61,750 bases of DNA, from positions 1 through 61,750 of IMG/VR virus record IMGVR_UViG_3300044941_000295; one strand, 5' to 3'. Position numbers and translations under genes: made by a program. Position 1 is the stretch's first letter. The number at the start of each line of letters is the position of its first letter. Positions 14,033 to 33,231 of this stretch are shown piece after piece. The notes beneath the pieces were generated by a model that saw only the letters and a list, made by a program, of their open reading frames with translations, made no database searches and was not told where the DNA came from. Origin of the DNA: a virus.

Positions 14033-14235
14033 TGCATGCTCCTTTGTCTAGCCTTTTCTGCTTTATCTAGTAATTCTACAGCATAACTTAAAGCTTTGCA
14101 AGCTAATTTTATATAAATAAAATAGCTAGCGTTTTTTCCTGTTTTTTCAATGGTTTTCTCTATTTTCAACTCACCAAACTCAATGTTTAGAAGCTGAATT
14201 TGTTTTTCAATGGGTTTTTTAATATCTTTAATCAT
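14029..14235 (-). CDS. Small helical protein of unknown function
   Basis: This 68-residue protein starts at ATG 14235. A longer frame with TTG at 14253 exists, but the -10 element at 14242-14247 lies inside it, so the ATG 6 nt after that element is preferred and the mRNA would be leaderless. Helical and lysine-rich. ATGA overlap with the next gene. Confidence 0.55.
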   Translation of the reverse strand: MIKDIKKPIEKQIQLLNIEFGELKIEKTIEKTGKNASYFIYIKLACKALSYAVELLDKAEKARQRSMQ

Positions 14236-14241
14236 GACTGT

Positions 14242-14270
14242 ATATTTGCACAAAATGAGCTGAGAGTCAA
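14242..14270 (-). promoter_or_regulatory. Sigma70-type promoter of the minus-strand unit
   Basis: Read on the minus strand, TTGACT (14270-14265), a 17-nt spacer and AAATAT (14247-14242) are followed after 6 nt by an ATG. Hexamer match and spacing are good for an early promoter. It overlaps back to back with the plus-strand promoter at 14274-14282. Confidence 0.65.
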
Positions 14271-14273
14271 CCG

Positions 14274-14282
14274 TGGTATATC
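14274..14282 (+). promoter_or_regulatory. Extended -10 promoter TGGTATATC
   Basis: TGG plus TATATC is an extended -10 element. Five nucleotides (14283-14287) separate it from the ATG at 14288, which has no ribosome site, so a leaderless transcript is predicted. No clear -35 is visible. The same 8-mer recurs at other gene junctions. Confidence 0.6.
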
Positions 14283-14287
14283 AAATT

Positions 14288-14704
14288 ATGAAAAGAAAGT
14301 GCGCCTATACAGGAAAAGAGAGCCTTTGTACTGATAAGGTTATACCTAGAGAGTTGTCTGACGAAGAAATACATAATTGGACTAACTCTTTGCCGTGTTC
14401 AATTGAGTATAAGGAATCCAAAGGCGCAGATTTCCCTAATGACTTGGAGGCTGAGATTCATGAAACTTTCTATCTTCTGGAAATTTACCGATGGAAAGTT
14501 AAGTATTTAGAAAAAAAGTTAGAAATATTACAACAACAAAACAATACAAGACGGCCAATAAAAAAAACAGGGGCTGCTCAAAAAAAGAAAGAAAAAGCTA
14601 AGGAAAAGCAAATCGAAGCGGCAATAAAAGAAAAACAAATCGTAGAGGATAACTCTTTAAAAATAGAGGAGTTTTTAAATACCAAAAAGAAAACTTTATT
14701 TTAG
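14288..14704 (+). CDS. Unknown protein with coiled Lys/Glu-rich tail
   Basis: This 138-residue protein is started at ATG 14288; a GTG at 14273 is in frame but precedes the predicted -10 element. The N-terminus has CAYTGKESLCTDKVIPREL, which looks like a small Cys-containing HNH-like or zinc-like start but lacks the second Cys pair. The rest is a long charged helix. Probably leaderless. Function unknown. Confidence 0.55.
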   Translation: MKRKCAYTGKESLCTDKVIPRELSDEEIHNWTNSLPCSIEYKESKGADFPNDLEAEIHETFYLLEIYRWKVKYLEKKLEILQQQNNTRRPIKKTGAAQKKKEKAKEKQIEAAIKEKQIVEDNSLKIEEFLNTKKKTLF

Positions 14705-14711
14705 GTGGGCT

Positions 14712-14897
14712 ATGAATTGCGATGGATGCAAAAAAGAGTTTGAAGTGCTAAATGTATTCAGTCCCTATGGGCACGACAATCCCTTTATTAGAGAGGAATC
14801 GGCCAGAAACACGGGGTATTGTGATGTTTGCTTTAATATTAAACTGGAAGAGCTGGAAAGCATGGTATATGAGAATACGGAGGAGAAAACCGCATGA
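14712..14897 (+). CDS. Small zinc-finger protein
   Basis: This 61-residue protein has two Cys pairs: C-x-x-C near residues 3-6 (NCDGC) and C-x-x-C near residues 37-40 (YCDVCF), as expected for one zinc ribbon. It overlaps the chaperonin gene by 4 nt (ATGA). Function unknown. Confidence 0.6.
   Translation: MNCDGCKKEFEVLNVFSPYGHDNPFIREESARNTGYCDVCFNIKLEELESMVYENTEEKTA
14863..14871 (+). promoter_or_regulatory. Possible extended -10 promoter TGGTATATG for the chaperonin gene
   Basis: TGG-TATATG lies inside the preceding small gene, 22 nt upstream of the chaperonin ATG, and is followed by a GGAGGAG ribosome site. The 8-mer matches the junction motif seen elsewhere. It could be chance because it also encodes Met-Val-Tyr. 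Confidence 0.4.
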
Positions 14898-16660
14898 GAC
14901 GAGTCAAAGAAGCAGAAAAGATTTTTACCAGCGATTTAGATAAAATTCAAAACGTAATTGTTTCTACACTGGACGATGTAGCTAAAATTGTTGGATCTAC
15001 TCTTGGGCCGGGAGGGCGCGTTGTAGCGATTGAAAGTATGCTTCCAGACATCCCCCATTCAGTAACAAAAGATGGGGTTTCGGTATTTAGAAGTTTGGGA
15101 GCTTCCAACGCTCTTCAGCAGCTTATTATTGAAATTACACGTGAAGCGGCTATTAAGACCGTATCCGAAGCTGGCGACGGCACTACTACTTCAACTATTT
15201 TGGCTGCGGAATTTACTAAAAATCTCTATAAGTTTTGCAAAAATAATCCCAAATACCCGCCGCAAAAAGTGGCGCGAATTATTAATAAGCTTTTGAATCA
15301 GAAATTTTTACCCTACATTGATAAAAATGCTATTAAAATTTCAAGCAAGAAGAAAAATCTAGATCTTTTGGAAAAAGTTGCTAATGTGTCGGTAAATGGC
15401 GACTCCGATATGGCAAAAGCTGTAATCTCCGCCTTTGAAATGACAGGTTTTTCGCAGGGATCGCATATTACTATTCAGCAGCTTTCGGGCCCATCTGACA
15501 AATATGAGGTGAGTCTAATTGAAGGCTTCCCCGTCTCGATGGGGTATGAAGAGTCAATTGGTAAATTTCACCCTGCTTTTATTAACGATAAGGGTAAGTT
15601 GAGGTGTGTACTTGAAAAACCACTATTCATTCTGTTTGATGGTAAAATTACCGATATAGTCCAGATCAAGAATGCCTTGGAAGGTATTGGCCAAGAATAT
15701 ACCAATGGGAACTCAGATTTTAAAAACGTGGTTCTTGTAGCTCACGGCTTTTCCGACCAGATTTTGACAACCCTTGCTTACAATTTTAACGACCCAACAA
15801 CCATTAACGTTGTGCCGTTTAAAACTCCAATCAATGCGATTATTAACTCGGAAACACAATTCCTCTATGATTTGGCGGCGTTTACGGGAGCTAAGATTTT
15901 TGATATGAACAACCCTATAAACAATGCTAAGGGTGACGAATTTGGCTTCGGAATGGAAAGAATGGAAATTTATAGATTCCGAGCAACTGTAATTGGAGAC
16001 CCCGATCCCACACTGGTTGAAGTGAGAGCCGAAGAAATTAAACAGCAATCCAAGCAGGCCAGCTCCAAACTAGAAAAAATTCTATTGGAAGAGAGACTTG
16101 GTAAGTTGACTTCTGGAATTGCCGAACTTAAAATCTATGGAGCTTCTGTTGGCGAACTTAAGGAGAAGGCTGATCGTGCAGAAGACGCCGTATTGGCAGT
16201 AAGATCTACTTTAAGTGATGGGTGTCTGCCGGGCGGGTGTCGTACTCTGATCAACCTAGCTTTGGAGTTGCACGAAGACAAAGATCCCATTGTCAATGAG
16301 GTGGTGATTCCTAGCCTATTCGCTCCGTTTTACCGTTTATTGGAAAATGCAGGGTATAATTTAGAAGAAATTGAAAAGATTCTATCTCAAATGATTAGCA
16401 ATAAAGACCTAGTAATGAATGTGGAGACGGGGGAATTTGGTGAAGCGACTGCCTTAGGTATATTTGACGCTATGCAAGCAGTTAGGCAGTCGTTAATTAA
16501 CTCTGTAAGTATTGCCTCTACTTTAGGGACGTGCGGCGGTCTAATTGTTCAACCAAGAATTCGAGAGCTTGAAATTCAAGATGCTAAGGACGAAGCAAAC
16601 TTTAGAAGAACGTTAAATAACGCAGAACACTTTATAAATGAAGCTAATGAGAGGGGGTAA
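14894..16660 (+). CDS. GroEL-like (Cpn60) chaperonin
   Basis: This 588-residue protein is close to the normal GroEL length of about 547. Diagnostic motifs are present: LGPGGR (37-42), TKDGVSV (58-64), the ATP-binding GDGTTT (94-99, with the catalytic Asp of the GroEL family), and near the C-terminus AEDAVLAVRSTL followed by PGG, which keeps the Asp that completes the ATPase site. The apical domain (about 190-380) is divergent. It presumably forms a folding ring in the host cell for phage proteins. Lying next to TerL and head genes, it may fold virion proteins. An independent GroES-like candidate occurs at 30939. Phage chaperonins are known from a few large phages. Confidence 0.88.
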   Translation: MRRVKEAEKIFTSDLDKIQNVIVSTLDDVAKIVGSTLGPGGRVVAIESMLPDIPHSVTKDGVSVFRSLGASNALQQLIIEITREAAIKTVSEAGDGTTTSTILAAEFTKNLYKFCKNNPKYPPQKVARIINKLLNQKFLPYIDKNAIKISSKKKNLDLLEKVANVSVNGDSDMAKAVISAFEMTGFSQGSHITIQQLSGPSDKYEVSLIEGFPVSMGYEESIGKFHPAFINDKGKLRCVLEKPLFILFDGKITDIVQIKNALEGIGQEYTNGNSDFKNVVLVAHGFSDQILTTLAYNFNDPTTINVVPFKTPINAIINSETQFLYDLAAFTGAKIFDMNNPINNAKGDEFGFGMERMEIYRFRATVIGDPDPTLVEVRAEEIKQQSKQASSKLEKILLEERLGKLTSGIAELKIYGASVGELKEKADRAEDAVLAVRSTLSDGCLPGGCRTLINLALELHEDKDPIVNEVVIPSLFAPFYRLLENAGYNLEEIEKILSQMISNKDLVMNVETGEFGEATALGIFDAMQAVRQSLINSVSIASTLGTCGGLIVQPRIRELEIQDAKDEANFRRTLNNAEHFINEANERG

Positions 16661-16770
16661 TGTATAACCCCTCGGTCTTGCTTGAAGTTGGAAATCTTCG
16701 GAAAGAAATAGAAAGAATGAAAGAAAACACTCTTAAGAATAAAATTAAAAGATTTTTTGGGATTAAATGA
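16660..16770 (+). CDS. 36-residue basic protein
   Basis: The frame MYNPSVLLEVGNLRKEIERM... ends in a basic segment (KIKRFFGIK). It starts in a TAATG overlap with the chaperonin stop and ends in an ATGA overlap with the terminase start, which is the usual spacing for real genes here. Function unknown. Confidence 0.5.
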   Translation: MYNPSVLLEVGNLRKEIERMKENTLKNKIKRFFGIK

Positions 16771-19700
16771 TTAAAAATGAAGAAATAGAAAAGCTAAAAA
16801 AAGAGCTAATTTTTAAACCTCTTAATTCTAAAGAGGAGCTTAGAGATTGGCTCTATCTTTATTTTGATATCTATTTTCCTATGGGGGTTGTCTACCCCAC
16901 CTCTACTCATGGCCCTATTGACGCTATGTGGAGAATCTATGAGCTTTTTAAAACGGGCGAGACCAAAAAAGTCCCTCAAGCCGTGATGGTAGCTAGTAGG
17001 GACTCATTTAAATGCCAAGCAGAGGGTAGTAAGCTTATAACTAAAGAAGGCATCAAAAACATAGAAGACATTAAAATTGGAGATGTTGTCTGGACAGGAT
17101 TTTCTTGGCAAAAGGTAACTAATTGGATAGATGACGGAATAAAAGACGGGGTTAAAATTACTACGAAATATGGCTACAATTTTACAGGCACCCCAATTCA
17201 CAAATATTGGGCACTTAGGGACGGGGTTGAACAATGGATAGAGTCTAAAGATCTAGATCCCGAAAAAGACCTTATATGTCTTAACTCTAATGTAGATTTG
17301 CAGTTTAAAGTAAACAACGAAAAGTATGATTTAGGCTATTTTTTAGGAATACTTGTCGGCGACGGCTGCTTATCTTTTTTAGATTACGAAAAAAACTCCC
17401 CCTTTTTTGCTCTGACTACGGTAGACAACTATATAAAGGATTTTTTCTTTAATTTTTGTGAGAAAAATTGGGGTTATACACCTAAAATTGCGACCGATAA
17501 GATAACCTACAGAGTAAGCAAAAAAGATGCCATTAATTTTGTAAAAGAATGCGGTCTTAAAAATAGCCTTTCTTATCAAAAAACTGTACCAAAAATTGTG
17601 TGGACAGATAAATCCATTGCTCTTGGCTTTATAAACGGTGTCTTTGATACGGACGGTACGTTTGAAAAAACTAAGAAAAACGCTTTATTTCAGATGTGTG
17701 CCGAAACACTTTTGAGAGAAATGCAAATATTGCTTCTTTCTTTTGGGGTGGTGTCGTCTTTTAGAAAATCTAAAAATTTGGTTAAATTTAAAGACCCATC
17801 TTTAAAACAAAATCATTTGACTTGTTATCTAACGATAAACGGTCACGACCTCGTTAAATTTCAAAAACTTGGCTTTACAAATAAATCCGCAAAAGCTAGT
17901 AAATTTAACAACGACATTAAAAAACCTAACTGCCATGATGTAATAAGCTGGTCTCAATTAGGGTTTTTAGTAGAAGTAATGAACCTTAAAAAAATAACCA
18001 AGAAAACTGCTGGTAGAAAAATAAAAACACCCATTAATCAATATAGAAGTAAAACTTACGGCGGAGTCGCTACAGATAAGTTGGTACGTTTTATTGAGTG
18101 GGCAAAAGAAACTATTGAGATGGGTGGATATAGAGAAGAGGACATTCCTAAAGTAGTTGACTGCATTAAAAGAATAGAGTCGTTGGTTAAAAACAAATGG
18201 CTAACTTTTACTAAAGAGGATGTAAAAGGTGTTCATTTTTATGACCTAACAGTGGAAAATGACCATAGTTATTGGAGCAATGGGTCTATAAGCCACAATA
18301 CTTTATCCGCTGCCGCCATCGAAGTTCTTTTATTTTTGCATTTCAGACTGCCCATGGCACATGCCGCCGCCATTAAATTCCAAGCAGGGGCTTGTGTTAA
18401 CTACGTCAACACAATGTTCAGAAAAATCAGACCGTATCTTGAAGCTCATGGTTGGACAAAAACATCAGATAATAAAACCCTAATTGAATGGCGCACTCCA
18501 GAAGGTGACGATATCTCTCTTACTGTTTTGACTGCAACCAAAGAAGGGTTTAACAGCCGTCACGTACCTCTTATGGTTTTGGACGAGCTAGATCTTATGG
18601 ATGCAGGCGCATTCCAAGAATCTCGAATGGTTCCTTCAATGTATAAAGGTATGCACCCCTTGACGCTTATTCTTTCCACTAGAAAATTTGCATCGGGCCT
18701 TATGGAGTCCCAGATCGCCCTCACCCCAAAAATCGGCGGTGAAGTTTATCGCTGGAACATTATAGATGTATCTGAAAGAATTACGCCCGAACAGGCTGAA
18801 GTGGACAAACCCAAAGTTGTTCGGTATGTAACCGCAAACCTCCCAATGCAAAATTTGTCAGAAGAGGAATGGAAAGCCTTGCCCGATAAAGAAAAAAATA
18901 AATTTGAAAAGTTTGAAGCGTATGCAGGCATAGCAGAACATCCTTTATTGCCTGTTATGCGCCACTATCTTGTTCATAGACCTCAACAAGACCATGGCTT
19001 TTTGTACAAACCTGTAGAAGCTGTTTTAAACAACTTTAGAGGTACAACGCCTGAATTTGCTGATGCCCAGCTTTTATGCAACAAGCCAAGTTCGGCAGGT
19101 CTTGTATATCCCAGATTCGACTCTCATTTAAACGTACTTACTATACCCCAAGCTTGGGAGAAGATCACTGGTAGTGAAAACCGCTATGCTACTTATGAGC
19201 AATTAAGGCAGTTTTTAATAAAACTTGGGTGTGTTTTTATTGGGGGTGGAGATTTTGGGTTTAGCGACTCGACCGCTCTAGTGGTGCTTTGTGTTTTGCC
19301 GGGAGGACATATTTTGTTGGTGGATAGTTTTATAGCTCCCGGCCTTGAACCAGAGGATGTTGTAAAACAGATGCTAGAGATGAACGAAAAATGGCAAATC
19401 GATAGATGGTACACCGACCAAAACCGACCCGACATCATCAAAACTTTTGTAAGAAGGGGCGGCAAGGCTCCTAAATTCGACAAGGATGTTGCAGAGGGTA
19501 TTGGTGCTTTACAGTCCAAAATTGTGGACTCAAATGGCGTTAGAAGGTTTTTTGTTTTAAATGTGCCTGAAAATCAATTTGTGATTGATATGTTTGCTAA
19601 TTATAAATGGGCTCTGGATAGCAAAGGCGAGATTGTGGAAGGAAAGCCCTACCATGATAGAGACGGTGTTTCAGACATGGCTGACGCTATACGTTATCCT

Positions 19701-19913
19701 TTCCAGAACTTATTTGGCGCTTCCAAAAAAGTTACGTTTGCTACTGCAACTTCAGACCCCGCCTTAACAAAGCCTAAAATGACGGGCTCTTTGGAAGAAA
19801 TGGCTAAGCAAGCAAATAAGCAGCTTATGCAAGAAAAAATGAACGAGCTTGTTCCAGAATCTAATCGTCAACCTGAGAAAAAGAAGGGGGCGAGAAAGAT
19901 CCTTTTCATGTGA
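16767..19913 (+). CDS. terL: Terminase large subunit interrupted by an intein
   Basis: This 1048-residue precursor is about 619 residues after removal of a 429-residue intein (residues 83-511). The spliced Walker A would read SRDSFKTLSAA. Walker B is VPLMVLDELDLMD. The C-terminal RNase H-like nuclease has GGDFGFSDST (first metal Asp), a middle segment with WYTDQNRPD, and DRDGVSDMADAIRYPF (last Asp). It packages DNA into the prohead using ATP and cuts concatemers. It lies before a virion gene and the portal, the usual packaging order. The intein sits exactly between the Lys and Thr of the P-loop, so no ATPase forms until splicing. Confidence 0.93.
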   Translation: MIKNEEIEKLKKELIFKPLNSKEELRDWLYLYFDIYFPMGVVYPTSTHGPIDAMWRIYELFKTGETKKVPQAVMVASRDSFKCQAEGSKLITKEGIKNIEDIKIGDVVWTGFSWQKVTNWIDDGIKDGVKITTKYGYNFTGTPIHKYWALRDGVEQWIESKDLDPEKDLICLNSNVDLQFKVNNEKYDLGYFLGILVGDGCLSFLDYEKNSPFFALTTVDNYIKDFFFNFCEKNWGYTPKIATDKITYRVSKKDAINFVKECGLKNSLSYQKTVPKIVWTDKSIALGFINGVFDTDGTFEKTKKNALFQMCAETLLREMQILLLSFGVVSSFRKSKNLVKFKDPSLKQNHLTCYLTINGHDLVKFQKLGFTNKSAKASKFNNDIKKPNCHDVISWSQLGFLVEVMNLKKITKKTAGRKIKTPINQYRSKTYGGVATDKLVRFIEWAKETIEMGGYREEDIPKVVDCIKRIESLVKNKWLTFTKEDVKGVHFYDLTVENDHSYWSNGSISHNTLSAAAIEVLLFLHFRLPMAHAAAIKFQAGACVNYVNTMFRKIRPYLEAHGWTKTSDNKTLIEWRTPEGDDISLTVLTATKEGFNSRHVPLMVLDELDLMDAGAFQESRMVPSMYKGMHPLTLILSTRKFASGLMESQIALTPKIGGEVYRWNIIDVSERITPEQAEVDKPKVVRYVTANLPMQNLSEEEWKALPDKEKNKFEKFEAYAGIAEHPLLPVMRHYLVHRPQQDHGFLYKPVEAVLNNFRGTTPEFADAQLLCNKPSSAGLVYPRFDSHLNVLTIPQAWEKITGSENRYATYEQLRQFLIKLGCVFIGGGDFGFSDSTALVVLCVLPGGHILLVDSFIAPGLEPEDVVKQMLEMNEKWQIDRWYTDQNRPDIIKTFVRRGGKAPKFDKDVAEGIGALQSKIVDSNGVRRFFVLNVPENQFVIDMFANYKWALDSKGEIVEGKPYHDRDGVSDMADAIRYPFQNLFGASKKVTFATATSDPALTKPKMTGSLEEMAKQANKQLMQEKMNELVPESNRQPEKKKGARKILFM
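17013..18299 (+). mobile_element. Intein with LAGLIDADG homing endonuclease in TerL
   Basis: It starts with Cys (codon 17013-17015) in FK-CQAEGSKL and ends with His-Asn before Thr+1 (ISHN-T). Block A/B splicing motifs are visible (GDVVWTG; TGTPIHKYWA as the TxxH block). Two LAGLIDADG helices are present: LGYFLGILVGDG and ALGFINGVFDTDG, both keeping the catalytic Asp. The element therefore looks complete and mobile. It is inserted in the P-loop of the host gene. Confidence 0.92.
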
Positions 19914-19970
19914 TTTTTCGACAAAAACGGCCAAATAGCCGTAAATTTGCGAAAAAAAAGCTTTAAAAGG

Positions 19971-19980
19971 CAATCTTTAT
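19971..19980 (+). promoter_or_regulatory. Late-promoter-like block CAATCTTTAT
   Basis: The AATCTTTA core at 19972-19979 ends 19 nt before the ATG at 19999, with a CGGAGAA ribosome site between. It lies in the 85-nt gap after TerL, which also holds a weak hairpin (ACGGC/GCCGT, 19926-19941). Confidence 0.55.
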
Positions 19981-19998
19981 ATAAAATCGGAGAAAAAC

Positions 19999-20931
19999 AT
20001 GGCTAAATTAAATCTTCTAACCTCTATTCAAGTTTATAAAGACTCTTCCCCTACAAACAATCCGCTTCAATCAACCGCTAACTGGACTAATAGTCAGATT
20101 GGGGTTGAGGTGTCCGAACCAGAAACTAAAAACCTTAAAATCCAACCTCAACAGTCAGAAGTGCTGTTTTCTGGAGTTGTACCAACAGACGCAAATAACA
20201 CCACTCTATACAGCATCCAAAAAAAGGTAGGAGTTTCAAATATATACATCCTTTCTGCGGTTGGCGGAACATTGCCAAATTTTAGACAGAATCGAGGAGT
20301 TAACGCCAACAATACTACCCAAATCACTATTTCTAAATCAGGCGCTCTTATGACTTTAACCCATTCTGGAGGGACAGCGCCTAATTTCAGTAACTTACAG
20401 TTTGGAGATATTCTTGAATTGGGTAACTCTTTTGATGTCCTAAACCGTGGAAAATTTAAAATCCTTTCTTATACCTCTAACACTGTAACTGTTGAAAATT
20501 ATGCTGGAGTGGTTGAGGTTGTAACTTTAGCTAATGGAAACGACCTTATTGCTTATTCGGCTAATGGCGTTCAAGTTGGCCAAAAAGTTAAAATTGGCGC
20601 TAACTTTGCTGGTTATACTAGAGGTGTTTACGAAATTACTGATGTGGGCCCAAACCACTTAGAATTTAATTCAGCTAAGGGAATCCCCGCAGAAAGCAAC
20701 GTACTAGCATCAATCGTGGTATATAAAAATAGCAAAAGCTTTCTCTATATTGAATACGATAAAGTATGCTCTCTTACAATTAATGGGGTTGAGAGAAGCG
20801 GCCTAAAACCCCTGTCTGTAGGGGCCAAAAAAGCGGCGGGATTTGTTTTGGAAGTTAGTGATATGTATAGCGCAGAAATTAAAAACGAAAGCACAGATGC
20901 TATGAATGTTTTGCTTATTAGTGCGGAGTAA
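19999..20931 (+). CDS. Putative virion protein
   Basis: This 310-residue beta-rich protein has Asn/Thr-rich strands (NNTTQITISKSGALMTLTH; GQKVKIGANFAGYTRGVYEI). It is located between TerL and portal and driven by a late-promoter-like block. A decoration, head-surface or tail-associated role is likely from position. No recognisable family. Confidence 0.5.
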   Translation: MAKLNLLTSIQVYKDSSPTNNPLQSTANWTNSQIGVEVSEPETKNLKIQPQQSEVLFSGVVPTDANNTTLYSIQKKVGVSNIYILSAVGGTLPNFRQNRGVNANNTTQITISKSGALMTLTHSGGTAPNFSNLQFGDILELGNSFDVLNRGKFKILSYTSNTVTVENYAGVVEVVTLANGNDLIAYSANGVQVGQKVKIGANFAGYTRGVYEITDVGPNHLEFNSAKGIPAESNVLASIVVYKNSKSFLYIEYDKVCSLTINGVERSGLKPLSVGAKKAAGFVLEVSDMYSAEIKNESTDAMNVLLISAE

Positions 20932-20933
20932 CC

Positions 20934-22724: not shown

Positions 22725-23347
22725 TGGAATCAATATACAAAACAAAATACCAAAGCCTTAAACAAAGATATCAAACAGACCTTGATACAGCTTTTCGTTT
22801 GGGATATGAAAAAGGCGCTCAAGACGCCCAAATAGAAGCCCAAATGCAACAAATACAGATGCAGCAACAGCAAATGGCGGCTCAACAGCAAATGGCGGCT
22901 CAACAGCAAGCCATGGGGCAGCCGCAAACGGGCGCACAAGGCGAGGAAATGTCTCCAGAAGAGCAAGCTACTGTAGGCGCACAAGGTGGTGAACAGCAAA
23001 TGCCACCAGAAATGGCGGGTGCGGCAGGAGGCGCTCCGATGGGTGGAGAGCAAATGCCACCAGAAATGGCTGAGCAAGGTGAGCTTGATGAGAAGATTCA
23101 AGAGCTAGAAAGTCTTCTAAGTAAAGGGGAAAAGCCTAAAATCCTTGATTTACGTAAAGTGGTTATGGAGCTTTCTTCTATTAGGAAAAATCAAATCGAA
23201 AACCTTAACAAGAAATCTAAAAAAATTGAAACTAAACAGAGATCTATAGTTAAAAATATTCTAAAAAAGTGGCAAGAAGAGTCAAAATCTGTAACGTCAG
23301 ATCTTGACAAAATTTTAGAAACTGAAGGTTTGAAGCTGGGTGAATAA
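22724..23347 (+). CDS. Gln/Met-rich protein between portal and MuF
   Basis: This 207-residue protein has the repeat QQQMAAQQQMAAQQQ near the N-terminus, Gly/Glu/Pro-rich middle units (GGEQMPPEMA repeated) and a charged helical C-terminus (KNQIENLNKKSKKIETK). It shares overlapping ATG/stop bases with both neighbours. The position between portal and MuF and the low-complexity composition suggest a scaffold or head-core role; this is inferred. Confidence 0.5.
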   Translation: MESIYKTKYQSLKQRYQTDLDTAFRLGYEKGAQDAQIEAQMQQIQMQQQQMAAQQQMAAQQQAMGQPQTGAQGEEMSPEEQATVGAQGGEQQMPPEMAGAAGGAPMGGEQMPPEMAEQGELDEKIQELESLLSKGEKPKILDLRKVVMELSSIRKNQIENLNKKSKKIETKQRSIVKNILKKWQEESKSVTSDLDKILETEGLKLGE

Positions 23348-24957
23348 TGAGAGGGCTTTCTTATGGCGCCCTTAAAAAAATAGCTAACCTAATAGACCAA
23401 CATTTTGATTCGATTGGTTTAAAATTTTTAGGGCTCATTCCAAAATCTAGAGGTAGCCGCATATTCTTTGACGCTGAACCAGACAGCTTGGTTTCTCTTT
23501 TCTTAGAAGCTCTAGACACTAAATCCCCCACCAAAACCGAGGAAGATACTTTAAAATCCATCCTTACTATAGCAGATGGGTATGTAGATGCCCTAAAAGA
23601 ACGCACAAAAGCTCAGGTGCTTCAGGATATAAATGCTTACGTCAACGACCAAAAACGCCAGAAAAAGCCAATTGATGTCAGCAAGGTGAATGAAATTTTT
23701 ACCGAAAAAATTGATAAAGCAAAGGCGCATTTTGAATTAATAGCGGGGCAGGAGAGCTACAAAACAAAAAACATTGCCTCTGCTTTAAAGTTCACAAGGA
23801 TTGGCGAAAGTTTAGGTGAAAGTGATCCGACAGTGTTCTTCGTGGTTACACATGACGACCGCACGGGCCCGTATGAATACATCCTTCACACACTACCCGA
23901 TAAAGTAACCCCACGCCTTTGGAAACTGTCTGAGGTACAAAGCTCTTATTATAAGCCGGGCGATCAATACCCAAGCTTTTCTGGGCTTCACGTTAATTGT
24001 TTTACTGAAACTCAAAAACTGTACACAAAAGAAGGACTAGTCACCTTCAAAGAACTTTTTGAAACCCAACAAAAACCAACAGTTATGGTTGATGGTAGGG
24101 TGATCAACAAAAAAATTCCAGCAAACCACCTAGGCAAGGAAGTGCCGGGACTGGTAAGGCTAGATCCTCACATTAAAAGGCCCGCTAGATTTTTTGAAAC
24201 AGAGCCAATTTTTTACACAGGCAAACAACCTGTATTAAGGCTGCATTTAACAAGCGGGCATGAAATAGAAGTTACAGAAAATCACGAAATGTGGGTGAGT
24301 ACAGGAAATGCCCAATGGGGAAAAAGAGTGGCTCACACCTTAAAGGTTGGTGATAAAATACCTTTAGCTGCCTATTCCGAATGTTTTGGTAAAGATCATT
24401 TCCCTGAAGAAGCTGAACTTATAGGTAATCTTTTCAGAAAAGATGTTCAAAAACCAAAAAAAGTGCCAGAAAGATTGTTCAAAGCAGACAAAGAAACCGT
24501 TTCCGCTTTTTTAAGAGGATTGTGCAAGGCAGATGAATATTTTGAAAGTAATCGTATAGTTTTATATCAAAATGACTTAGAATTTCTCAAACAAATTCAA
24601 CTGTTAATAAGTATGTTTGGTTTTGTATCTAAAATTCATCATCATAGCAAATCCTCAATGAAAACCATAACTTACTCTGACGACGCAAAATTTAAAAACG
24701 CTAAAATATCAAAAATAGAAAAATTAGGTGAACTTGATACTTATTGTCTTACTGAACCCATAACCAATACCGTCACCGTAAATGGTATAATTACAGGACA
24801 ATGTAGATGTAAACTTAGCTACTTACCTAAAGGTTACGGCTTTGGGAGCGACGGTAGAATCAAATTTATAGCCAAAGATCATGATGAATTTAAAGTACAG
24901 CGAGAAAAGTACGGACTTCCTGAAGTTCCTCAAAAAATATCTAAAAAAAGATCTTGA
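23347..24957 (+). CDS. MuF-like head morphogenesis protein interrupted by an intein
   Basis: This precursor has 536 residues. The N-terminal helical part leads to a conserved core (DDRTGPYEYILH, then FSGLHVN). After the intein (residues 218-485) the core continues as CRCKLSYLPKGYGFG, so splicing would restore HVN-CRCKLSYLP, the Cys-rich motif typical of phage Mu gpF-like proteins. The product joins the head near the portal. The spliced protein would be about 268 residues. It is the third head gene of the cluster, directly before early genes. Confidence 0.8.
   Translation: MRGLSYGALKKIANLIDQHFDSIGLKFLGLIPKSRGSRIFFDAEPDSLVSLFLEALDTKSPTKTEEDTLKSILTIADGYVDALKERTKAQVLQDINAYVNDQKRQKKPIDVSKVNEIFTEKIDKAKAHFELIAGQESYKTKNIASALKFTRIGESLGESDPTVFFVVTHDDRTGPYEYILHTLPDKVTPRLWKLSEVQSSYYKPGDQYPSFSGLHVNCFTETQKLYTKEGLVTFKELFETQQKPTVMVDGRVINKKIPANHLGKEVPGLVRLDPHIKRPARFFETEPIFYTGKQPVLRLHLTSGHEIEVTENHEMWVSTGNAQWGKRVAHTLKVGDKIPLAAYSECFGKDHFPEEAELIGNLFRKDVQKPKKVPERLFKADKETVSAFLRGLCKADEYFESNRIVLYQNDLEFLKQIQLLISMFGFVSKIHHHSKSSMKTITYSDDAKFKNAKISKIEKLGELDTYCLTEPITNTVTVNGIITGQCRCKLSYLPKGYGFGSDGRIKFIAKDHDEFKVQREKYGLPEVPQKISKKRS
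23998..24801 (+). mobile_element. Intein in MuF gene with a terminal Gln and decayed endonuclease
   Basis: It starts with Cys218 (CFTETQKLYTKEGL), has a TENHEMWVSTG block B, and ends VNGIITGQ before Cys+1. The last residue is Gln instead of Asn and the penultimate His is absent; both are known in a minority of inteins. LAGLIDADG-like segments (AELIGNLFRKD; FLRGLCKADEYFE) are degenerate. It is 268 residues, smaller than the TerL intein. Splicing is predicted, mobility is doubtful. Confidence 0.85.
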
Positions 24958-26814: not shown

Positions 26815-26820
26815 ATAACG

Positions 26821-26855
26821 TGGTCGTAACATTTTGGCGTTACGACCATTTTTTT
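26821..26855 (+). terminator. Factor-independent terminator
   Basis: TGGTCGTAAC and GTTACGACCA form a perfect 10-bp stem with an 8-nt loop (26831-26838), followed by seven T residues. It ends the small-gene operon starting at 25013. Confidence 0.95.
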
Positions 26856-26856
26856 C

Positions 26857-26885
26857 TTTACTTTCTTTAAAATATCCCGTACAAT
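26857..26885 (+). promoter_or_regulatory. Sigma70-type promoter TTTACT-17-TACAAT
   Basis: TTTACT at 26857-26862, 17 nt, TACAAT at 26880-26885. Six nucleotides later is the ATG at 26892 with no ribosome site, so a leaderless helicase mRNA is predicted. It lies directly after the terminator. Confidence 0.6.
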
Positions 26886-26891
26886 AAATCT

Positions 26892-27944
26892 ATGGGAAAT
26901 TATCAATACCAAGTAGACAGCGCCCTTAGAGTTTTAAACAACACCCTTAGCGGCAACTATATTGCGGGTGTGGTGGCGGCAGCTCCCGGCGCAGGTAAGA
27001 CCCAAATTTCCTTTATTTATATTAATGAGTATGTTCGGAAGTTTCCGAACGCTAAAGTTCTTGTTCTTACCCACAACATGAATGTCTTAAAAAACCAATA
27101 CTTAAACGACCTCGCCAACGCCCATGTTCGGATTGATTTTACGTTTGGCGATTTCCGAACACAAAACGTACAGGTTAAGGTTGGCATTCCCGCTTCTATT
27201 AAAAACCTTGATTGGACTAAGATTGACCTTCTGGTGGTGGACGAGGCCCATGAATATTGGGGCGAAAAAATGGTTACGGACATCTATAAGCGTTTGGCTC
27301 CAAACCACGTGCTTTTGCTGACAGGTTCTCCTTCCAGCTTTATTATGCACAACCATGCGGTTGACCGTGTTTACAAAAACAATAGAAAATACTTTATTGA
27401 TTTTATTGCAGGGTCTGATTTAGCTAAAAACGACGTATTTGCATCCGTTACCTTGGACTGCATAGATAGTGGTGAGACTACCGCCCAAAGTCTTGAAAAC
27501 GCCCTTAATAGGGCTAAAGCGCAAGGGTACGACATGAGCAAGATTATGATTGCTTGCGCTAATACTGAGCAGGCAAATATTGTTTCCTACCAGATGGGAA
27601 TTAGGGGGCGTAAGGTGGCGCTTTCTACATCCAACAATGACAGTGATTCTGCCGAGTTTGAAGCTTTTTTAAAAGGTGAAAAAGACGTTTTAGTTGTTGT
27701 CCGTAGAGGAATTCTTGGGTTCTCTGACAATAATTTATCTCTTGTTATTGACATGAAGTGCAGCCCTGATTTAGACACAAGGAACCAACTGTTTGCTCGA
27801 GTGCTGCGTAAGAGCCCAAAAGGTATTAAAAAGGCATACATTACCGTACCTTCTAAAGATAAGGTTAAAGGTGAAGTGGCCATGTTGAGAAAACTTGTTG
27901 ATTTTATGAAAAGAGAAAACTTCTCGACTTATTTGGGCGTTTAA
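26892..27944 (+). CDS. SF2-type DEAH-box helicase-like protein
   Basis: This 350-residue protein has Walker A APGAGKT (31-37), DEAH (117-120) in LLVVDEAHEYWG, and motif III-like TGSPSS. The C-terminal half has a short RecA-like second domain ending with GILGFSDNNLSLVIDMKCSP and a motif VI-like TRNQLFARVLRKSPK. Shorter than UvsW-type helicases. It may act in replication or recombination. Converges with the M15 peptidase gene, overlapping it by 4 bases. Confidence 0.75.
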   Translation: MGNYQYQVDSALRVLNNTLSGNYIAGVVAAAPGAGKTQISFIYINEYVRKFPNAKVLVLTHNMNVLKNQYLNDLANAHVRIDFTFGDFRTQNVQVKVGIPASIKNLDWTKIDLLVVDEAHEYWGEKMVTDIYKRLAPNHVLLLTGSPSSFIMHNHAVDRVYKNNRKYFIDFIAGSDLAKNDVFASVTLDCIDSGETTAQSLENALNRAKAQGYDMSKIMIACANTEQANIVSYQMGIRGRKVALSTSNNDSDSAEFEAFLKGEKDVLVVVRRGILGFSDNNLSLVIDMKCSPDLDTRNQLFARVLRKSPKGIKKAYITVPSKDKVKGEVAMLRKLVDFMKRENFSTYLGV

Positions 27945-28333
27945 TAATTCCAGCGCCGAACCTTGTCTTTTCTGGAATCAACGTGAATAAATTTCTTATT
28001 GTGCCTTGCGTCTCCGATCGCTTTGAAATGCTTTTCGCATGCAGCGTACAAGGCATTTAAATCAGACGCTGTAATGTCGGCAGCGTTTCCCTGAGGGTGC
28101 TGGCTTGTATCGGTCGAACCAATTGCCCTGTTGTGCTTAAGACAGCGGTAGCCGCTGGTTACGGTCATGGATTTTCCGTAATCGTCTCGAACTTTTTGAA
28201 GATCCTCAATCAATTCCTTGCTGATTTTTTGGTTTACGCAATCGGCGTTTTTACATTTACACTCAAACTCTAAACTATTGAAATTCTTAGAAAGTTGTAT
28301 TTTTTCACCTTTTTTCCATGTAAAATAACTCAT
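27941..28333 (-). CDS. Peptidase M15-type endolysin or D,D-carboxypeptidase candidate
   Basis: This 130-residue protein has motif SGYRCLKHN and then SxxSQHPQGNAADI with H79 and D86, and KFIHVD with H117, which together form the zinc site of M15_3/VanY-like D-Ala-D-Ala peptidases. It lacks a signal peptide, so if it acts as an endolysin it needs a holin or other export route. ACGGAGA ribosome site and a late-promoter-like block lie upstream. Small size fits a globular endolysin. Confidence 0.8.
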   Translation of the reverse strand: MSYFTWKKGEKIQLSKNFNSLEFECKCKNADCVNQKISKELIEDLQKVRDDYGKSMTVTSGYRCLKHNRAIGSTDTSQHPQGNAADITASDLNALYAACEKHFKAIGDARHNKKFIHVDSRKDKVRRWNY

Positions 28334-28353
28334 TTAAAAATCTCCGTTTTTAT

Positions 28354-28363
28354 TAAAGATTGC
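28354..28363 (-). promoter_or_regulatory. Late-promoter-like block on the minus strand (GCAATCTTTA)
   Basis: TAAAGATT at 28354-28361 is the minus-strand AATCTTTA. It lies 20 nt upstream of the M15 peptidase ATG at 28333, so the same late signal appears to drive a lysis-type gene on the other strand. Confidence 0.55.
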
Positions 28364-28369
28364 CTATTG

Positions 28370-28378
28370 TGGTATATC
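28370..28378 (+). promoter_or_regulatory. Extended -10 promoter TGGTATATC
   Basis: TATATC at 28373-28378 preceded by TGG. Five nt later comes the ATG at 28384. No ribosome site lies between, so a leaderless mRNA is predicted. It is divergent from the late block at 28354-28363. Confidence 0.6.
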
Positions 28379-28383
28379 TGATC

Positions 28384-29862
28384 ATGATAGAATTTGAAAT
28401 TATATCGCCATCAGTGGCACTTATACATAATTACCAGCAACACCTGCCGTCTTTGCGTAAGGAATTAACCTATAGAAATCTTACAAACGTTTACGCGTAC
28501 AATAAGCATAATCAGAAAAAATGGCTTCAAAGAAAAGACCCGATAGCGTTTGAGGAGGAGGCGGAAAGGCTTAAAAAACTTATTTATCAAAATATTTTAT
28601 TTAACCATAATGGAAAGCTCGCTACTTACCCGGGCATCATCCCTTACCTAAAAACCCCGCACAAAGTAGTCAATCGAATTGATTACCCGCCATTCAAGCC
28701 CCTTCCGTGGCAAGCTTCCCTACCCTTTAACCCTTATAGCTATCAAGAAGAAGCTGTGCGTAATCTCTTAGAGGCCAAACATGCCCATATCAGCGCTGCT
28801 ACTGGACTAGGGAAAACCCTTATTATTCTTATGCTGGCAAGAAATGCGGGGCTAGATATGGTGATTACAACCCCCGCACAATCTATTTTTGCTGATCTAC
28901 TAAAAGAGTGCGAAACCTACCTTGGGAAGAACGTAGTTGGAGCTTACGGCGATGGAAAAAAAGATCTCACTAAAAAAATAACTGTTGCAATTAACAGATC
29001 ACTTTCGATGGTGAAAGAGGGTACTCCAGCTTGGGAGTTTTTCTCAAAAAAGAAAGTTATGATCGTAGACGAAACACATGCGTTTGGCAGTGAAGATTTG
29101 TCTAAGACCGCGTTCGGATTACTTAAAGATATCCCCTATAGATTTTTTTTAAGCGCTACGCCAATCAGAATGGATGGAACGCAAACCTTGTTAAATGCCA
29201 TTATTGGTAAATGTGTTTTAGATATGGATTTGGAAAAGGGGATTAAGGGCGGTTATCTATCGCCCTTAAAATTTAAGATAATAAATACCAGAACCCCTAA
29301 TACTCTAAACTTTCAAGATCCGATTGAAGCTAAAAGAGAGTATTTTCTTAGAAACCCAAATATTGCAGAAATTGCAGGTAGACTTGGTAACGCCAATTGG
29401 ACGGTGAAGGGTGAGAACACCCTGATTCTGGTTGAAGAATTGCAACAGATTCAAATGATAGCCAAACATCTAACCGTTCCGTACGGATATGTCCATTCTG
29501 GCTCAAAAGCTGAAGCTGAGTCCTATGGCCTCAAGAAGGTGAACGCTACGGAAGAGATCGAAAGATTCAACAAAGGGGAAATAAAAGTCTTAATAGGAAC
29601 AAGGTCGGTCGCTACGGGAACGAATATTTTTTCTCACCACACCATCAACTGTATGGGCGGGACTTCGGAAGTCGCCACAATGCAAGGCGCAGTCGGCAGA
29701 TCCACAAGACAGACGGATAAGAGCAAATACGCCCAATATCACAAGCCAAAGCATTTTTGTGTTATTTACGATTTTAACGTAACTAACAGTGAAATAATGG
29801 TGCGACAGCTAGAGAAAAGGATTGAATTTTACCGACAATCAGGTGAGGACGTGGTATATTAA
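28384..29862 (+). CDS. SF2 helicase of UvsW type
   Basis: This 492-residue protein starts at ATG 28384, because the longer frame from 28360 includes the -10 element. Motifs: ATGLGKT (139-145), DETH (VMIVDETHAFGS), SATP (RFFLSATPIRMDG), TGTNIF and motif VI QGAVGRSTRQTD. A UvsW-like 3'-5' or branch-migrating helicase is inferred. It is the first gene of a unit that continues with a sigma-like gene. Confidence 0.82.
   Translation: MIEFEIISPSVALIHNYQQHLPSLRKELTYRNLTNVYAYNKHNQKKWLQRKDPIAFEEEAERLKKLIYQNILFNHNGKLATYPGIIPYLKTPHKVVNRIDYPPFKPLPWQASLPFNPYSYQEEAVRNLLEAKHAHISAATGLGKTLIILMLARNAGLDMVITTPAQSIFADLLKECETYLGKNVVGAYGDGKKDLTKKITVAINRSLSMVKEGTPAWEFFSKKKVMIVDETHAFGSEDLSKTAFGLLKDIPYRFFLSATPIRMDGTQTLLNAIIGKCVLDMDLEKGIKGGYLSPLKFKIINTRTPNTLNFQDPIEAKREYFLRNPNIAEIAGRLGNANWTVKGENTLILVEELQQIQMIAKHLTVPYGYVHSGSKAEAESYGLKKVNATEEIERFNKGEIKVLIGTRSVATGTNIFSHHTINCMGGTSEVATMQGAVGRSTRQTDKSKYAQYHKPKHFCVIYDFNVTNSEIMVRQLEKRIEFYRQSGEDVVY
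29852..29860 (+). promoter_or_regulatory. Extended -10 promoter TGGTATATT
   Basis: TATATT at 29855-29860 preceded by TGG and by CCGACA at 29832-29837 (partial -35). Five nt before the ATG at 29866, no ribosome site, so leaderless transcription of the sigma-like gene is predicted. Confidence 0.6.
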
Positions 29863-29865
29863 GTT

Positions 29866-30942
29866 ATGAAAAGTAAAAAATTTCATGTAGATACAGATTT
29901 TCAGCAACTAGCTCAACTTGTGGACTTTAAGCTCACCCAAAACAATTATAAAAAAATGTCTAAAAAAGAGCTTGAAAAAGTGCAGGAAAAACAAGTTAAT
30001 AACGTCTTCTCTTTGGAAGAAAGTTTTAAAAACACCCTTCTGACGAACGCAGAAGGTAAGCTTGTTTCAGTGTATCAAAAATTCATAGATTATATAAAAA
30101 AGGATGTTGGGAATATTTTGGTAGCTCAGTCGTATTTTAGAGAAAAGCAAAAGCATTTTACTAAAATATCTTCTTGCATTAAAAATGACCGACCCAAAGA
30201 TCTGACGGAATTTCATATAAATTACAATCTAATCTCCTTTATTGTGCAAAATTGGGGAGGGCCGCTTCCTCTTAAAGCTCAAGATATTTATGATCGCTTT
30301 ATAGAAGCCAGACAAGTGTTAATTGAAAACAACATGCCATTAGCAATTAACAGAGCTTTGACTTTTTATCGCAAAACCAACGAGAATGATTTGTCATTGC
30401 TTGATCTAATTAATATTTGTGTTACAGGGCTCGCTGTTGGAATTGATAAGTATTCGGGCCCATATTCTAAAGTTTGGCGATCCGTATGTATTGGTCGCAT
30501 GGTTGGATTTATGATTAAAGAGTATAGTGAAACATTTGTTAAGCTATACCCTACCGATAAAAAAATTCTTTACAGGGCGAATATAATTAAATATCGCCAT
30601 AAGATTGAGGACTTTGAGGAGTTAGCGGAGGCAGTTAATAAAAGTTTCTTAGAAGATAAAGCTAAGGGTATGCCAATCCCAAAACTACCTATTTCGGCCC
30701 ATACAATAAAAAGCCTAATGAATGCGGCCCATTACATTAGCACTGACAGTAAAATTAACGAAGACAACGAGATTTCTGATGAAGGTGCGGGGGTTTATGA
30801 TTACGTATCAGAATATGAAGGCTCGATAGATATGAGCGAAGAAGCTGAAAATCGAGATAGTTTGCTTAAATTAAGCATGGCTATTAAAAATTTGGACGTA
30901 TTGCCAAGAAAAATCATTCGTTTAAAGGGAGTTTCTGTATGA
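29866..30942 (+). CDS. Phage sigma factor with region 2 but almost no region 4
   Basis: This 358-residue protein has residues about 151-222 that read like sigma70 region 2: VLIENNMPLAINRALTFYR, then LSLLDLINICVTGLAVGIDK, which aligns with the LDLIQEGNxGLxxAxxK core, followed by the region 2.3-2.4-like SKVWRSVCIGRMVGF. A C-terminal 25-residue stretch (AIKNLDVLPRKIIRL) looks like the very start of region 4 only. This resembles T4 gp55, a late sigma that lacks region 4. It is the best candidate to read the YAATCTTTA block. The alternative is an unknown helical protein. Confidence 0.6.
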   Translation: MKSKKFHVDTDFQQLAQLVDFKLTQNNYKKMSKKELEKVQEKQVNNVFSLEESFKNTLLTNAEGKLVSVYQKFIDYIKKDVGNILVAQSYFREKQKHFTKISSCIKNDRPKDLTEFHINYNLISFIVQNWGGPLPLKAQDIYDRFIEARQVLIENNMPLAINRALTFYRKTNENDLSLLDLINICVTGLAVGIDKYSGPYSKVWRSVCIGRMVGFMIKEYSETFVKLYPTDKKILYRANIIKYRHKIEDFEELAEAVNKSFLEDKAKGMPIPKLPISAHTIKSLMNAAHYISTDSKINEDNEISDEGAGVYDYVSEYEGSIDMSEEAENRDSLLKLSMAIKNLDVLPRKIIRLKGVSV

Positions 30943-31247
30943 TTAGTGTCAATAACAAAATCTTTTGCGAAGCATATTCTGGAGGTAAGTCCTTGAAATC
31001 AGAGGTTAAATCGGGATTTGCCACAGTTCAGCAAAAAAACAACTTAGTCGGGCTTAGGGTTCTGGCTGATGCGACAGTCGCTTTTGGAACTAAGACCCTT
31101 GATATTCCCAAGGGTTCTGTGGTATTCTTTAATGAAGAAACATTGTATATCCACCAACAATACCATGCGCCTATTAAAAACAACGTTTTTGATGAGCCGT
31201 GCGTTGTTGCCGACTTCAACCATGTAATAGGGGTAAAAATTGGCTAA
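30939..31247 (+). CDS. GroES-like co-chaperonin candidate
   Basis: This 102-residue protein resembles GroES in length and in the order of strands: GLRVLADATV, TLDIPKGSVVFFNEETLYI, then CVVADFNHVIGVKI in the C-terminal position of the ESDILAI strand of GroES. There is no clear mobile loop motif. If correct it would pair with the phage GroEL at 14894. The start overlaps the sigma-like gene stop by 4 nt. Confidence is limited because the match is by pattern. Confidence 0.4.
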   Translation: MISVNNKIFCEAYSGGKSLKSEVKSGFATVQQKNNLVGLRVLADATVAFGTKTLDIPKGSVVFFNEETLYIHQQYHAPIKNNVFDEPCVVADFNHVIGVKIG

Positions 31248-32241
31248 ATTATTGGTGTGTGGCGACCCCCACACAATGATATCAAATCTAGAAGATTCTC
31301 AAAAGCTTTTAGATTTTATACTTGAAAATGCCTTAAAAGCAAAGGTAGACGGAGTTGTTTTTACTGGAGATCTTTTCCATAACCATGCGGTTGTTAGAAT
31401 TGAGGTTACGGACTTTTGGGTTAGAAATCTTCTAAAGCTGACTGAAAATAATTTAAAATGTATTATAATAGCAGGAAATCACGATATGGTGGGCGATAAA
31501 GCCAAGGAAGGCAAATTTAGCGCCGTAACCTCACTTGGCTTAATTCCAAACGTAATGGTAATTGATCAGAAAGATATAGTTACGTTCCCTGACAAAACAG
31601 TTTTGGCGCTTAGAGCTTATACAAGTGACCATGCACTTTTCATAAACGACTGTGCTGAAATGAAGGCAAAAGGCGCTAACTATTTAATTGCCCACCAAAC
31701 TTTCACTGGAGCGACCTATTCTAACGGTTTTTATGCTTCGGACGGTATTGATCCTTCACTTGTAGCTCAGGATCATGTTATTTCAGGTCACATCCACACC
31801 TCCATGCAGATTGGTAATTGCTTTTATGTTGGCAGCCCTAAAGCCGACAATATGGCAGACGCCAATATCCCCAAAGGGGTTTGGATTTTAAATTTTAAAC
31901 AAGATGGTTCTGGTTATAGCAAGGAATTCCTCTCAACAGATGCGGTAGTCACCTGCTATAAAAAGTTTAAGATTGTGGAAGGTGAGGATTTTCCTGTTTT
32001 AAATCCAGCGCACAAAAACTATCTAGAATTAGAGGGATCGAATATTTGGATTACTTCTATGAAAAAAAAGCTCAAGAATATGCAAAACCTACAGATTAAG
32101 GCAGTCCCAACAGACACAAAACTGTCCACATCAAAAGCAAGAGTTACAGATATAGAGGATTTCCTAACAAATCAATTTAAGCCAATCAACGGTCTAAAAA
32201 TAGAAGAGGTTCGTCAATTTATTAGGGGGCTTGATGAGTAA
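31240..32241 (+). CDS. SbcD/Mre11-like nuclease (gp47-like)
   Basis: This 333-residue protein starts at TTG 31240. Metallophosphoesterase motifs: CGDPHT (D-x-H), FTGDLFHNH (GDxxH), AGNHDM (GNHD), IAHQ and SGHIHTS (GHxH). The order and size fit SbcD and T4 gp47 nucleases that process ends with SbcC. The SbcC-like gene is 3 kb downstream. The start overlaps the preceding gene by 8 nt. Confidence 0.85.
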   Translation: MAKLLVCGDPHTMISNLEDSQKLLDFILENALKAKVDGVVFTGDLFHNHAVVRIEVTDFWVRNLLKLTENNLKCIIIAGNHDMVGDKAKEGKFSAVTSLGLIPNVMVIDQKDIVTFPDKTVLALRAYTSDHALFINDCAEMKAKGANYLIAHQTFTGATYSNGFYASDGIDPSLVAQDHVISGHIHTSMQIGNCFYVGSPKADNMADANIPKGVWILNFKQDGSGYSKEFLSTDAVVTCYKKFKIVEGEDFPVLNPAHKNYLELEGSNIWITSMKKKLKNMQNLQIKAVPTDTKLSTSKARVTDIEDFLTNQFKPINGLKIEEVRQFIRGLDE

Positions 32242-32650
32242 CGATAATAGCACAATTGTTGATAGTCATCGTAATATGCTGATGCTATCTAAAAACCTAA
32301 GCGATTTTCAAATTGAAAATCTAAGGCAGTGGCCATTTGTTTTTTTTAATGGCGTAGAAAATGTATCCGTATCTTGGAACTTTATAGAAGAAAAAGATGG
32401 AGAAGAGCTATTTAGTCCGGGATTTGTAACTTTTGACATTACAACCCAAAAAACAAACGATCTTGCAACATCGGTCGTGTTTTTAGAGTCTTGTGTTAAA
32501 CTTATGTTTTGGTCAGATACTAAAGTAAACATTTTAATTAATGGTGAACCATGGAACAGTCAAACAAAGTCATCAAATACCAAGAAGACTTCTCGGAAGA
32601 AGAAAACAAAGCGCTCCAAGAATTCATTAAAAATGGATGTCCCGGCTTAA
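32234..32650 (+). CDS. Unknown protein with Lys/Arg-rich tail
   Basis: This 138-residue protein begins MSNDNSTIVDSH; an in-frame TTG 3 nt earlier is a weaker start. The core FQIENLRQWPFVFFNGVENVSVSWNF resembles small phage beta-proteins. The basic tail (SQTKSSNTKKTSRKKKTKRS) overlaps the next gene by 100 nt in a different frame. Function unknown. Confidence 0.55.
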   Translation: MSNDNSTIVDSHRNMLMLSKNLSDFQIENLRQWPFVFFNGVENVSVSWNFIEEKDGEELFSPGFVTFDITTQKTNDLATSVVFLESCVKLMFWSDTKVNILINGEPWNSQTKSSNTKKTSRKKKTKRSKNSLKMDVPA

Positions 32651-33195
32651 CAAAAGTTGACGAGGACAGGACATTTGAGTGGTTTCGGCTTTACATGTCG
32701 GGCAAAAACTATGGAGAAATAGCCTCCATCTGTAACGTCAAAAAAGAACTTGTCCTGTATATTGGGAACAAGCTTAAATGGAATGAAAAAAGGATGTCTT
32801 ACTACTCAGAGATATCCTCAACCCTTCTTCAGAAGACCGTGACTGTTAAGGCAGAAAGTGCCAACACAATTGCTACTATGGTATCGGCCCTTAACCAGTA
32901 TTTTGGGGATAAATTTATCAATTATCTTAGAACTAAAGATGCTAAACATATTGACGGTATTGACTCTAAGATGCTGGCGCAATACTACAAGTCCTTGGAA
33001 ATGTTGGATAAATTGGTTCCAAGCTCCCCATCAGTTGCTGCAACCCCTGCCGTCAATATTAACGTTGGATCAAATGCCAAAATTGAGCAATCCCCTAATG
33101 GAGACGTCACTGTAACGACTGACGACTCCGCTAAAGAAATCTTGTCTGCATTAGCAAAATATAAAAAGAAATTGAGCGAAGAAGACGAGGGTTGA
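32551..33195 (+). CDS. HTH protein, possible terminase small subunit-like
   Basis: This 214-residue protein contains a helix-turn-helix-like segment (SGKNYGEIASICNVKKELV) followed by LYIGNKLKWNEKRMSYYSEI, a pattern used by small terminase subunits and other phage DNA-binding proteins. The middle is helical, the C-terminus disordered. It overlaps the previous gene by 100 nt. No terminase genes are adjacent, so TerS identity is only a suggestion. Confidence 0.4.
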   Translation: MEQSNKVIKYQEDFSEEENKALQEFIKNGCPGLTKVDEDRTFEWFRLYMSGKNYGEIASICNVKKELVLYIGNKLKWNEKRMSYYSEISSTLLQKTVTVKAESANTIATMVSALNQYFGDKFINYLRTKDAKHIDGIDSKMLAQYYKSLEMLDKLVPSSPSVAATPAVNINVGSNAKIEQSPNGDVTVTTDDSAKEILSALAKYKKKLSEEDEG

Positions 33196-33231
33196 CCTGC
33201 CCAAAATCCCATGATATGATTTTATCATGGG
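33192..33231 (+). promoter_or_regulatory. Sigma70 promoter with overlapping operator-like palindrome
   Basis: TTGACC at 33192-33197, 17 nt, TATGAT at 33215-33220 and six nt to the ATG at 33227. CCCATGATA (33208-33216) and TATCATGGG (33223-33231) form a perfect 9-bp inverted repeat that covers the -10 and the start codon. It could be a repressor site or an RNA hairpin, and the mRNA would be leaderless. Confidence 0.7.

Follow-up and report, generated by a model that had tools for sequence, protein, structure and literature searches.

The window, that is, the whole 61,750-nucleotide stretch of DNA analysed here, is a linear 61.75-kb virus record with 39% G+C, possibly a fragment. Judged by gene order and protein similarity, the virus is a distant relative of Myxococcus phage Mx1: the two have in common a helicase-sigma-phosphoesterase-terminase gene order, the proteins are 32 to 43% identical, and the Mx1 matches include a helicase (1e-62), a terminase (6e-47) and, for the gene at 29866, a "putative RNA polymerase sigma factor" (1e-35). 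Scans of viral contigs with single proteins or with a helicase alignment did not find close relatives. A portal alignment that included Mx1 recovered 80 related viral contigs, several of them 120 to 167 kb long; in around 40 of the 80, the portal is 51 to 61% identical to that of the window, and G+C content lies mostly between 31 and 45%.

Five genes of the window begin with an ATG located 5 or 6 nt behind a -10 element and have no Shine-Dalgarno (SD) sequence. They are listed below, together with a sixth start that had been proposed alongside them.

14029-14235, minus strand: 68-aa gene with the sixth named start
14242-14270, minus strand: possible promoter TTGACT-17-AAATAT upstream of 14235, with a weak -10
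14274-14282, plus strand: extended -10 TGG-TATATC, 5 nt ahead of the ATG at 14288 (TGG-TATATC-AAATT-ATG)
14288-14704, plus strand: predicted leaderless gene, 138 aa, with a conserved N-terminal KRKCxYTG motif
26857-26885, plus strand: sigma70-type promoter TTTACT-17-TACAAT, 6 nt ahead of the ATG at 26892 (TTTACT-17-TACAAT-AAATCT-ATG)
26892-27944, plus strand: predicted leaderless DEAD/ResIII helicase gene, 350 aa
28370-28378, plus strand: extended -10 TGG-TATATC, 5 nt ahead of the ATG at 28384 (TGG-TATATC-TGATC-ATG)
28384-29862, plus strand: predicted leaderless UvsW-like helicase gene, 492 aa, matching the Mx1 orthologue
29852-29860, plus strand: extended -10 TGG-TATATT, 5 nt ahead of the ATG at 29866 (TGG-TATATT-AAGTT-ATG)
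29866-30942, plus strand: predicted leaderless gene for a phage sigma factor of the diverged sigma-70 family, 358 aa
33192-33220, plus strand: sigma70-type promoter TTGACC-17-TATGAT, 6 nt ahead of the ATG at 33227 (TTGACC-17-TATGAT-TTTATC-ATG)
33227-33601, plus strand: predicted leaderless gene for a small protein, 124 aa

An earlier note on this DNA had ascribed the same layout to all six starts. We confirm it for 14288, 26892, 28384, 29866 and 33227; at 14235 on the minus strand, the -35 (TTGACT), the 17-bp spacer and the TGn are fair, the -10 (AAATAT) has only three of six matches, and the gene has no orthologue, so this start is no more than a possible case. The ATG at 59884 also lies directly behind a sigma70-like promoter, and the likelier start of that gene is 59902, after GGAGG, making it a short-leader case. 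As for the 29866 product, the window protein alone has no Pfam sigma match, and Pfam Sigma70_r2 is found in seven of 28 family members (best 9e-4); the family profile matches RpoD residues 374 to 570 (E 7e-10), a similarity in sigma-70 regions 2/3, and it is this profile that settles the assignment of the predicted protein as a diverged sigma-70-family factor.

Orthologues of the 78 window genes were located in all fetched loci, the start nearest to the aligned N-terminus was taken, and each start was scored for an SD and for a -10 hexamer ending 4 to 8 nt ahead of it. A search for the same spacing elsewhere in the window, which the earlier note had recommended, found it at exactly five of the 78 genes, namely the five confirmed above. 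The same rule applied to annotated starts yields one of 86 in T4, one of 73 in S-SSM5 and none of 55 in Mx1 (2/214 in total), and the Mx1 stretches examined differ from the window in having no TGGTATAT sites and no -10 at the leaderless spacing. Among orthologues, which are related by descent and therefore give non-independent counts, and whose start codons were picked by alignment, the layout is kept in 89% for 14288 (eight of nine), 85% for 26892 (n=13) and 57% for 28384 (n=23); the value for 29866 (65%, n=17) is somewhat high, since the sigma matches of one sub-clade were omitted because the alignment began too far in. An SD was found in 0% of the orthologues of 14288 and 26892, 12% of those of 29866, and 35% of those of 28384. 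For 33227, the sole detectable homologue (in L018) has TTGACC-17-TATCCT-6-ATG. Nearly all remaining window genes show the layout in around 0% of their orthologues and are mostly SD-led; the exceptions are genes with five or fewer orthologues, save one of 11 at 30939. The hexamers vary among orthologues (TATAAT, TATTAT, TAATAT, TACTAT, TAGAAT, TATATN), as do the spacers, and the distance stays at 5 to 6 nt. Conservation of the N-termini in the orthologue alignments supports the start codons of the leaderless genes. In the sub-clade mentioned above (L028, L029, L064, L071 and L073), the helicase and/or sigma starts are SD-bearing or of another kind, mostly SD-bearing, and L029, L064, L071 and L073 represent a natural switch of initiation mode.

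The earlier note had also considered this spacing unlikely to arise by chance, which holds for the extended -10 class and cannot be said of the sigma70 class by pattern alone. TGGTATAT occurs 15 times in the window against 1.4 expected, and three of the 18 extended -10 sites of the window have a long-frame ATG at exactly 5 nt (p ~2e-5 for this one given offset). In the pooled relatives, an ATG follows 5 to 6 nt downstream of 41/373 extended -10 sites and of 13/1248 permuted motifs, an excess of around 11-fold (p=6.5e-17). A pattern-only scan for the sigma70 class found no enrichment at 6 nt (10/1898 vs 99/19121), so this class rests on orthologue conservation. T4-like MotA middle promoters were ruled out because there is no constant activator box near -30, a common upstream word being present at only 13/50 leaderless sites. 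A Bacteroidetes promoter (TAnnTTTG at 14241) was likewise dropped, given that SD sites are common here and that the set shares a different word.

Bacterial RNA polymerase usually prefers a pyrimidine at -1 and a purine at +1. A T or C immediately precedes the start codon at 39 of 44 leaderless starts (89%; 42 ATG and two GTG), compared with 130 of 278 SD-led starts (47%; p=7e-8), a pyrimidine excess that we read as the signature of transcription starting at the A of the ATG. Over 373 sites, the spacing between the extended -10 and the following ATG is bimodal, with 50 sites at 5 to 7 nt, four at 8 to 13 nt, and 51 at 14 to 20 nt; thus, messages would either lack a leader or have one with room for an SD. 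With a gap of 5 nt, the A of the start codon occupies the sixth position behind the -10, which is short by the usual standards, and the 5′ end could therefore be displaced by 1 to 2 nt. On these grounds, we expect that, here and in distant relatives, a constant group of genes comprising two helicases, a sigma factor and a small protein is transcribed from the start codon onwards, without a ribosome-binding leader; the layout has persisted across deep divergence. Leaderless transcripts from two promoter classes, as originally proposed, are thus well supported by sequence conservation, and a third class, described below, had been missed.

The same promoter also stands ahead of genes with leaders. 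TGGTATAT precedes groEL (14894), 33886, 41431 and 49837, so that the TGTGGTATAAT promoter drives SD-led genes with leaders of around 10 to 25 nt, among them the following:

14863-14871, plus strand: extended -10 of the same class ahead of groEL (14894), with an SD leader, leadered in relatives too
41404-41412, plus strand: extended -10 of the same class ahead of 41431, with an SD leader, conserved in L118 and L129
49812-49820, plus strand: extended -10 of the same class ahead of 49837, with an SD leader

The gene at 14894-16660 encodes a phage GroEL-like chaperonin found throughout the lineage, 50 to 62% identical in the closer relatives and nearly always SD-led. In most contigs with a readable upstream region, its homologue has a promoter of the same class and an SD leader; this identifies the motif as a promoter rather than a signal for translation. 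The description of leaderless starts as recurrent was accordingly correct and at the same time incomplete: the lack of a leader depends on the gene, not on the promoter class, because TGTGGTATAAT also drives SD-led genes.

A further word, [CT]AATCTTTA, precedes SD-led genes, some of them structural, both in relatives and in the window (3419, 5087, 9077, 10384 and 19999), and it usually coincides with, or directly follows, the stop codon of the gene ahead of it. Its sites and the associated features in the window are as follows:

3394, 5061, 9054, 10064, 10355 and 19971, plus strand, and 28362, minus strand: [CT]AATCTTTA sites
10064-10072, plus strand: late-type word TAATCTTTA, 4 nt ahead of the ATG at 10077
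10077-10364, plus strand: 95-aa gene, a further leaderless candidate missed by the earlier note
28354-28362, minus strand: late-type word CAATCTTTA belonging to the gene 28333-27941, which runs leftward; 7 bp separate the word from the TGG of the helicase promoter (28370)

In five genomes, an SD-led start lies no more than 45 nt after 31/69 CAATCTTTA sites, as against 2/69 for the reverse complement. Judging from such co-occurrence, [CT]AATCTTTA or CAATCTTTA is probably a late promoter recognised by the phage sigma factor. An ATG lies exactly 4 nt after 7/146 [CT]AATCTTTA sites vs 2/394 controls (p=0.002), with almost none at 5 to 13 nt; these include the third class of candidate, 10077, whose layout is common to one of its three orthologues (the G005 orthologue, L116). 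The leftward gene 28333-27941 on the minus strand, behind the late-type promoter that adjoins the helicase promoter, encodes a 130-aa protein that looks like a putative peptidase or endolysin.

Some of the leaderless genes are tightly packed. The sigma factor gene at 29866 has its promoter embedded in the end of the helicase gene, across the final codons and the stop (GTG GTA TAT TAA), whereas in Mx1 the sigma start overlaps the helicase end (ATGA), and the promoter of that helicase gene (28384) is itself back to back with the CAATCTTTA ahead of the leftward gene at 28333. Among the relatives, the reversed late word (TAAAGATT or AAAGATTG) lies just upstream of 13/50 leaderless extended -10 promoters vs 0/68 SD-led ones, several of the 13 being helicase orthologues and hence non-independent; it is best read as a leftward late promoter. 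The simplest reason for the lack of leaders is tight packing; an early/late switch is possible. Other leaderless genes in the relatives encode DNA polymerase III alpha, thymidylate kinase-like and serine/threonine phosphatase-like proteins, an HNH/HTH protein, and SLT transglycosylases, so leaderlessness is concentrated in replication and regulation genes, though not confined to them.

Taken together, the comparative evidence makes it very likely that these leaderless genes are genuine in a phage lineage distantly related to Mx1. RNA polymerase would bind a TGTGG-TATAAT-like extended -10 at 14288, 28384 and 29866, and a full sigma70 -35/-10 at 26892 and 33227, and transcription would begin with the A of the start codon or around 1 to 2 nt away from it. 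The 5′-terminal AUG would then be recognised by host 70S or IF2-bound ribosomes, that is, by the ordinary leaderless route. The promoter and the start signal would be fused into around 20 bp, so that a gene could have a promoter of its own even where room is very limited. Expression would be early or middle, before the CAATCTTTA-driven late genes, which would probably depend on the phage sigma factor. AT-rich DNA ahead of genes could in principle give TATAAT-like words at many starts, as the 39% G+C of the genome and the unenriched sigma70 pattern would allow; nevertheless, only five of 78 window genes have the layout, it is retained in the orthologues of these genes, where such exist, but not in those of other genes, permuted motifs yield a tenth as many cases, and T4, S-SSM5 and Mx1 supply just two among 214 genes, so that we regard chance as highly improbable. 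It is also quite unlikely that the boxes are real promoters whose transcripts begin upstream, or a few bases into the gene, with another start codon behind a leader. Several of the reading frames do have alternative in-frame starts (28384 can be extended to a TTG at 28360), and a 5-nt gap is short for +1, but orthologue N-termini start at the same place, the Y(-1)A(+1) signature falls exactly at the ATG, and the TTG at 28360 has no SD ahead of it.

The earlier note had further suggested that altered or 70S ribosomes could serve these messages during infection. A phage-specific switch of this kind, with modified or 70S ribosomes favouring 5′-AUG messages, would fit a leaderless set made up mainly of helicase, sigma, DNA polymerase, nucleotide kinase-like and phosphatase genes, the make-up to be expected of a single expression class. 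Against it, the window and seven relatives (eight records, which may be incomplete) contain no homologue of IF3, bS21, S1 or MazF/PemK and most genes keep their SD, so we see no support for altered ribosomes; moreover, late structural genes retain SD sequences, groEL is SD-led under the same promoter, and a few leaderless starts belong to SLT transglycosylases or follow the late-type word. We consider such a switch very unlikely. According to a review on the subject (PMC9031893), leaderless 5′-AUG messages are read by the 70S ribosomes of ordinary bacteria. Initiation by 70S ribosomes is the established route for such messages and does without any phage factor. A regulatory role for leaderlessness is a more tentative proposal that strikes us as rather unlikely: early or middle replication genes and the late sigma would form a class of 5′-AUG messages with promoters back to back with late promoters, and the change from host sigma70 to the phage sigma would alter both the direction of transcription and the initiation mode, from leaderless to SD-led.

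Leaderless phage genes are already known. For instance, lambda cI is expressed in this way from PRM, as are cI and cro of the telomere phage PY54, the PY54 ends having been mapped by RACE (PMC4488713). There, as predicted here from sequence, the mRNA begins at an AUG directly behind the promoter; in contrast, the lambda and PY54 genes are regulators of the lysogeny switch, one or two per phage, whereas in the lineage of the window they belong to the lytic core, helicases and a sigma factor among them, throughout the lineage and with more than one promoter class. In Deinococcus-Thermus, expression with a "-10 region adjacent to ORF" is common, involving around a third of D. radiodurans genes and a TANNNT signal (PMC12340547), and leaderless genes, including TA-led ones, are widespread in bacteria (PMC3160421). 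These genes share with ours a -10 a few bases before the ATG, no SD, and conservation in orthologues, while the window differs from Deinococcus-Thermus in that only around 6% of the genes are concerned, with an extended -10 (TGTGGTATAAT) in a genome that otherwise relies on SD sites. T4, with gp55 and its late promoters, resembles the window in having a phage sigma, a UvsW-type helicase and a separate late word before SD-led genes; the late word is CAATCTTTA here and TATAAATA in T4, where the same rule detects no such leaderless set (1/86). What is new is the conserved, gene-specific set in lytic core genes, of which a limited search of the open-access literature found no report in any phage lineage. 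Such a set offers a rare natural comparison, in which the same promoter within one lineage is followed by a leaderless or an SD-led gene and the choice is kept gene by gene, and it makes the purpose of leaderless initiation testable in a phage. In addition, the phage sigma factor and the two phage-specific promoter words should help annotators to correct start codons in this uncultured group.

Some further features of the lineage may be mentioned. The only match in a genome contig was L087 (JAGWUP010000007.1), a 165-kb contig in an Elusimicrobia MAG and a distant member of the lineage, which is possibly a clue to the host or a misbinned phage; it contains 14 AATCTTTA sites against four expected, and its sigma gene is split into two pieces. 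In the window, the terminase large subunit (16767-19913) carries a long insert at around residues 82 to 508, from ...SFKC to ...SHNT, which is missing from the Mx1 terminase and is probably an intein. Pfam identifies a second intein (Intein_splicing), which has a LAGLIDADG domain (LAGLIDADG_3), at around residues 218 to 490 of a protein encoded downstream of the portal, at 23347-24957.
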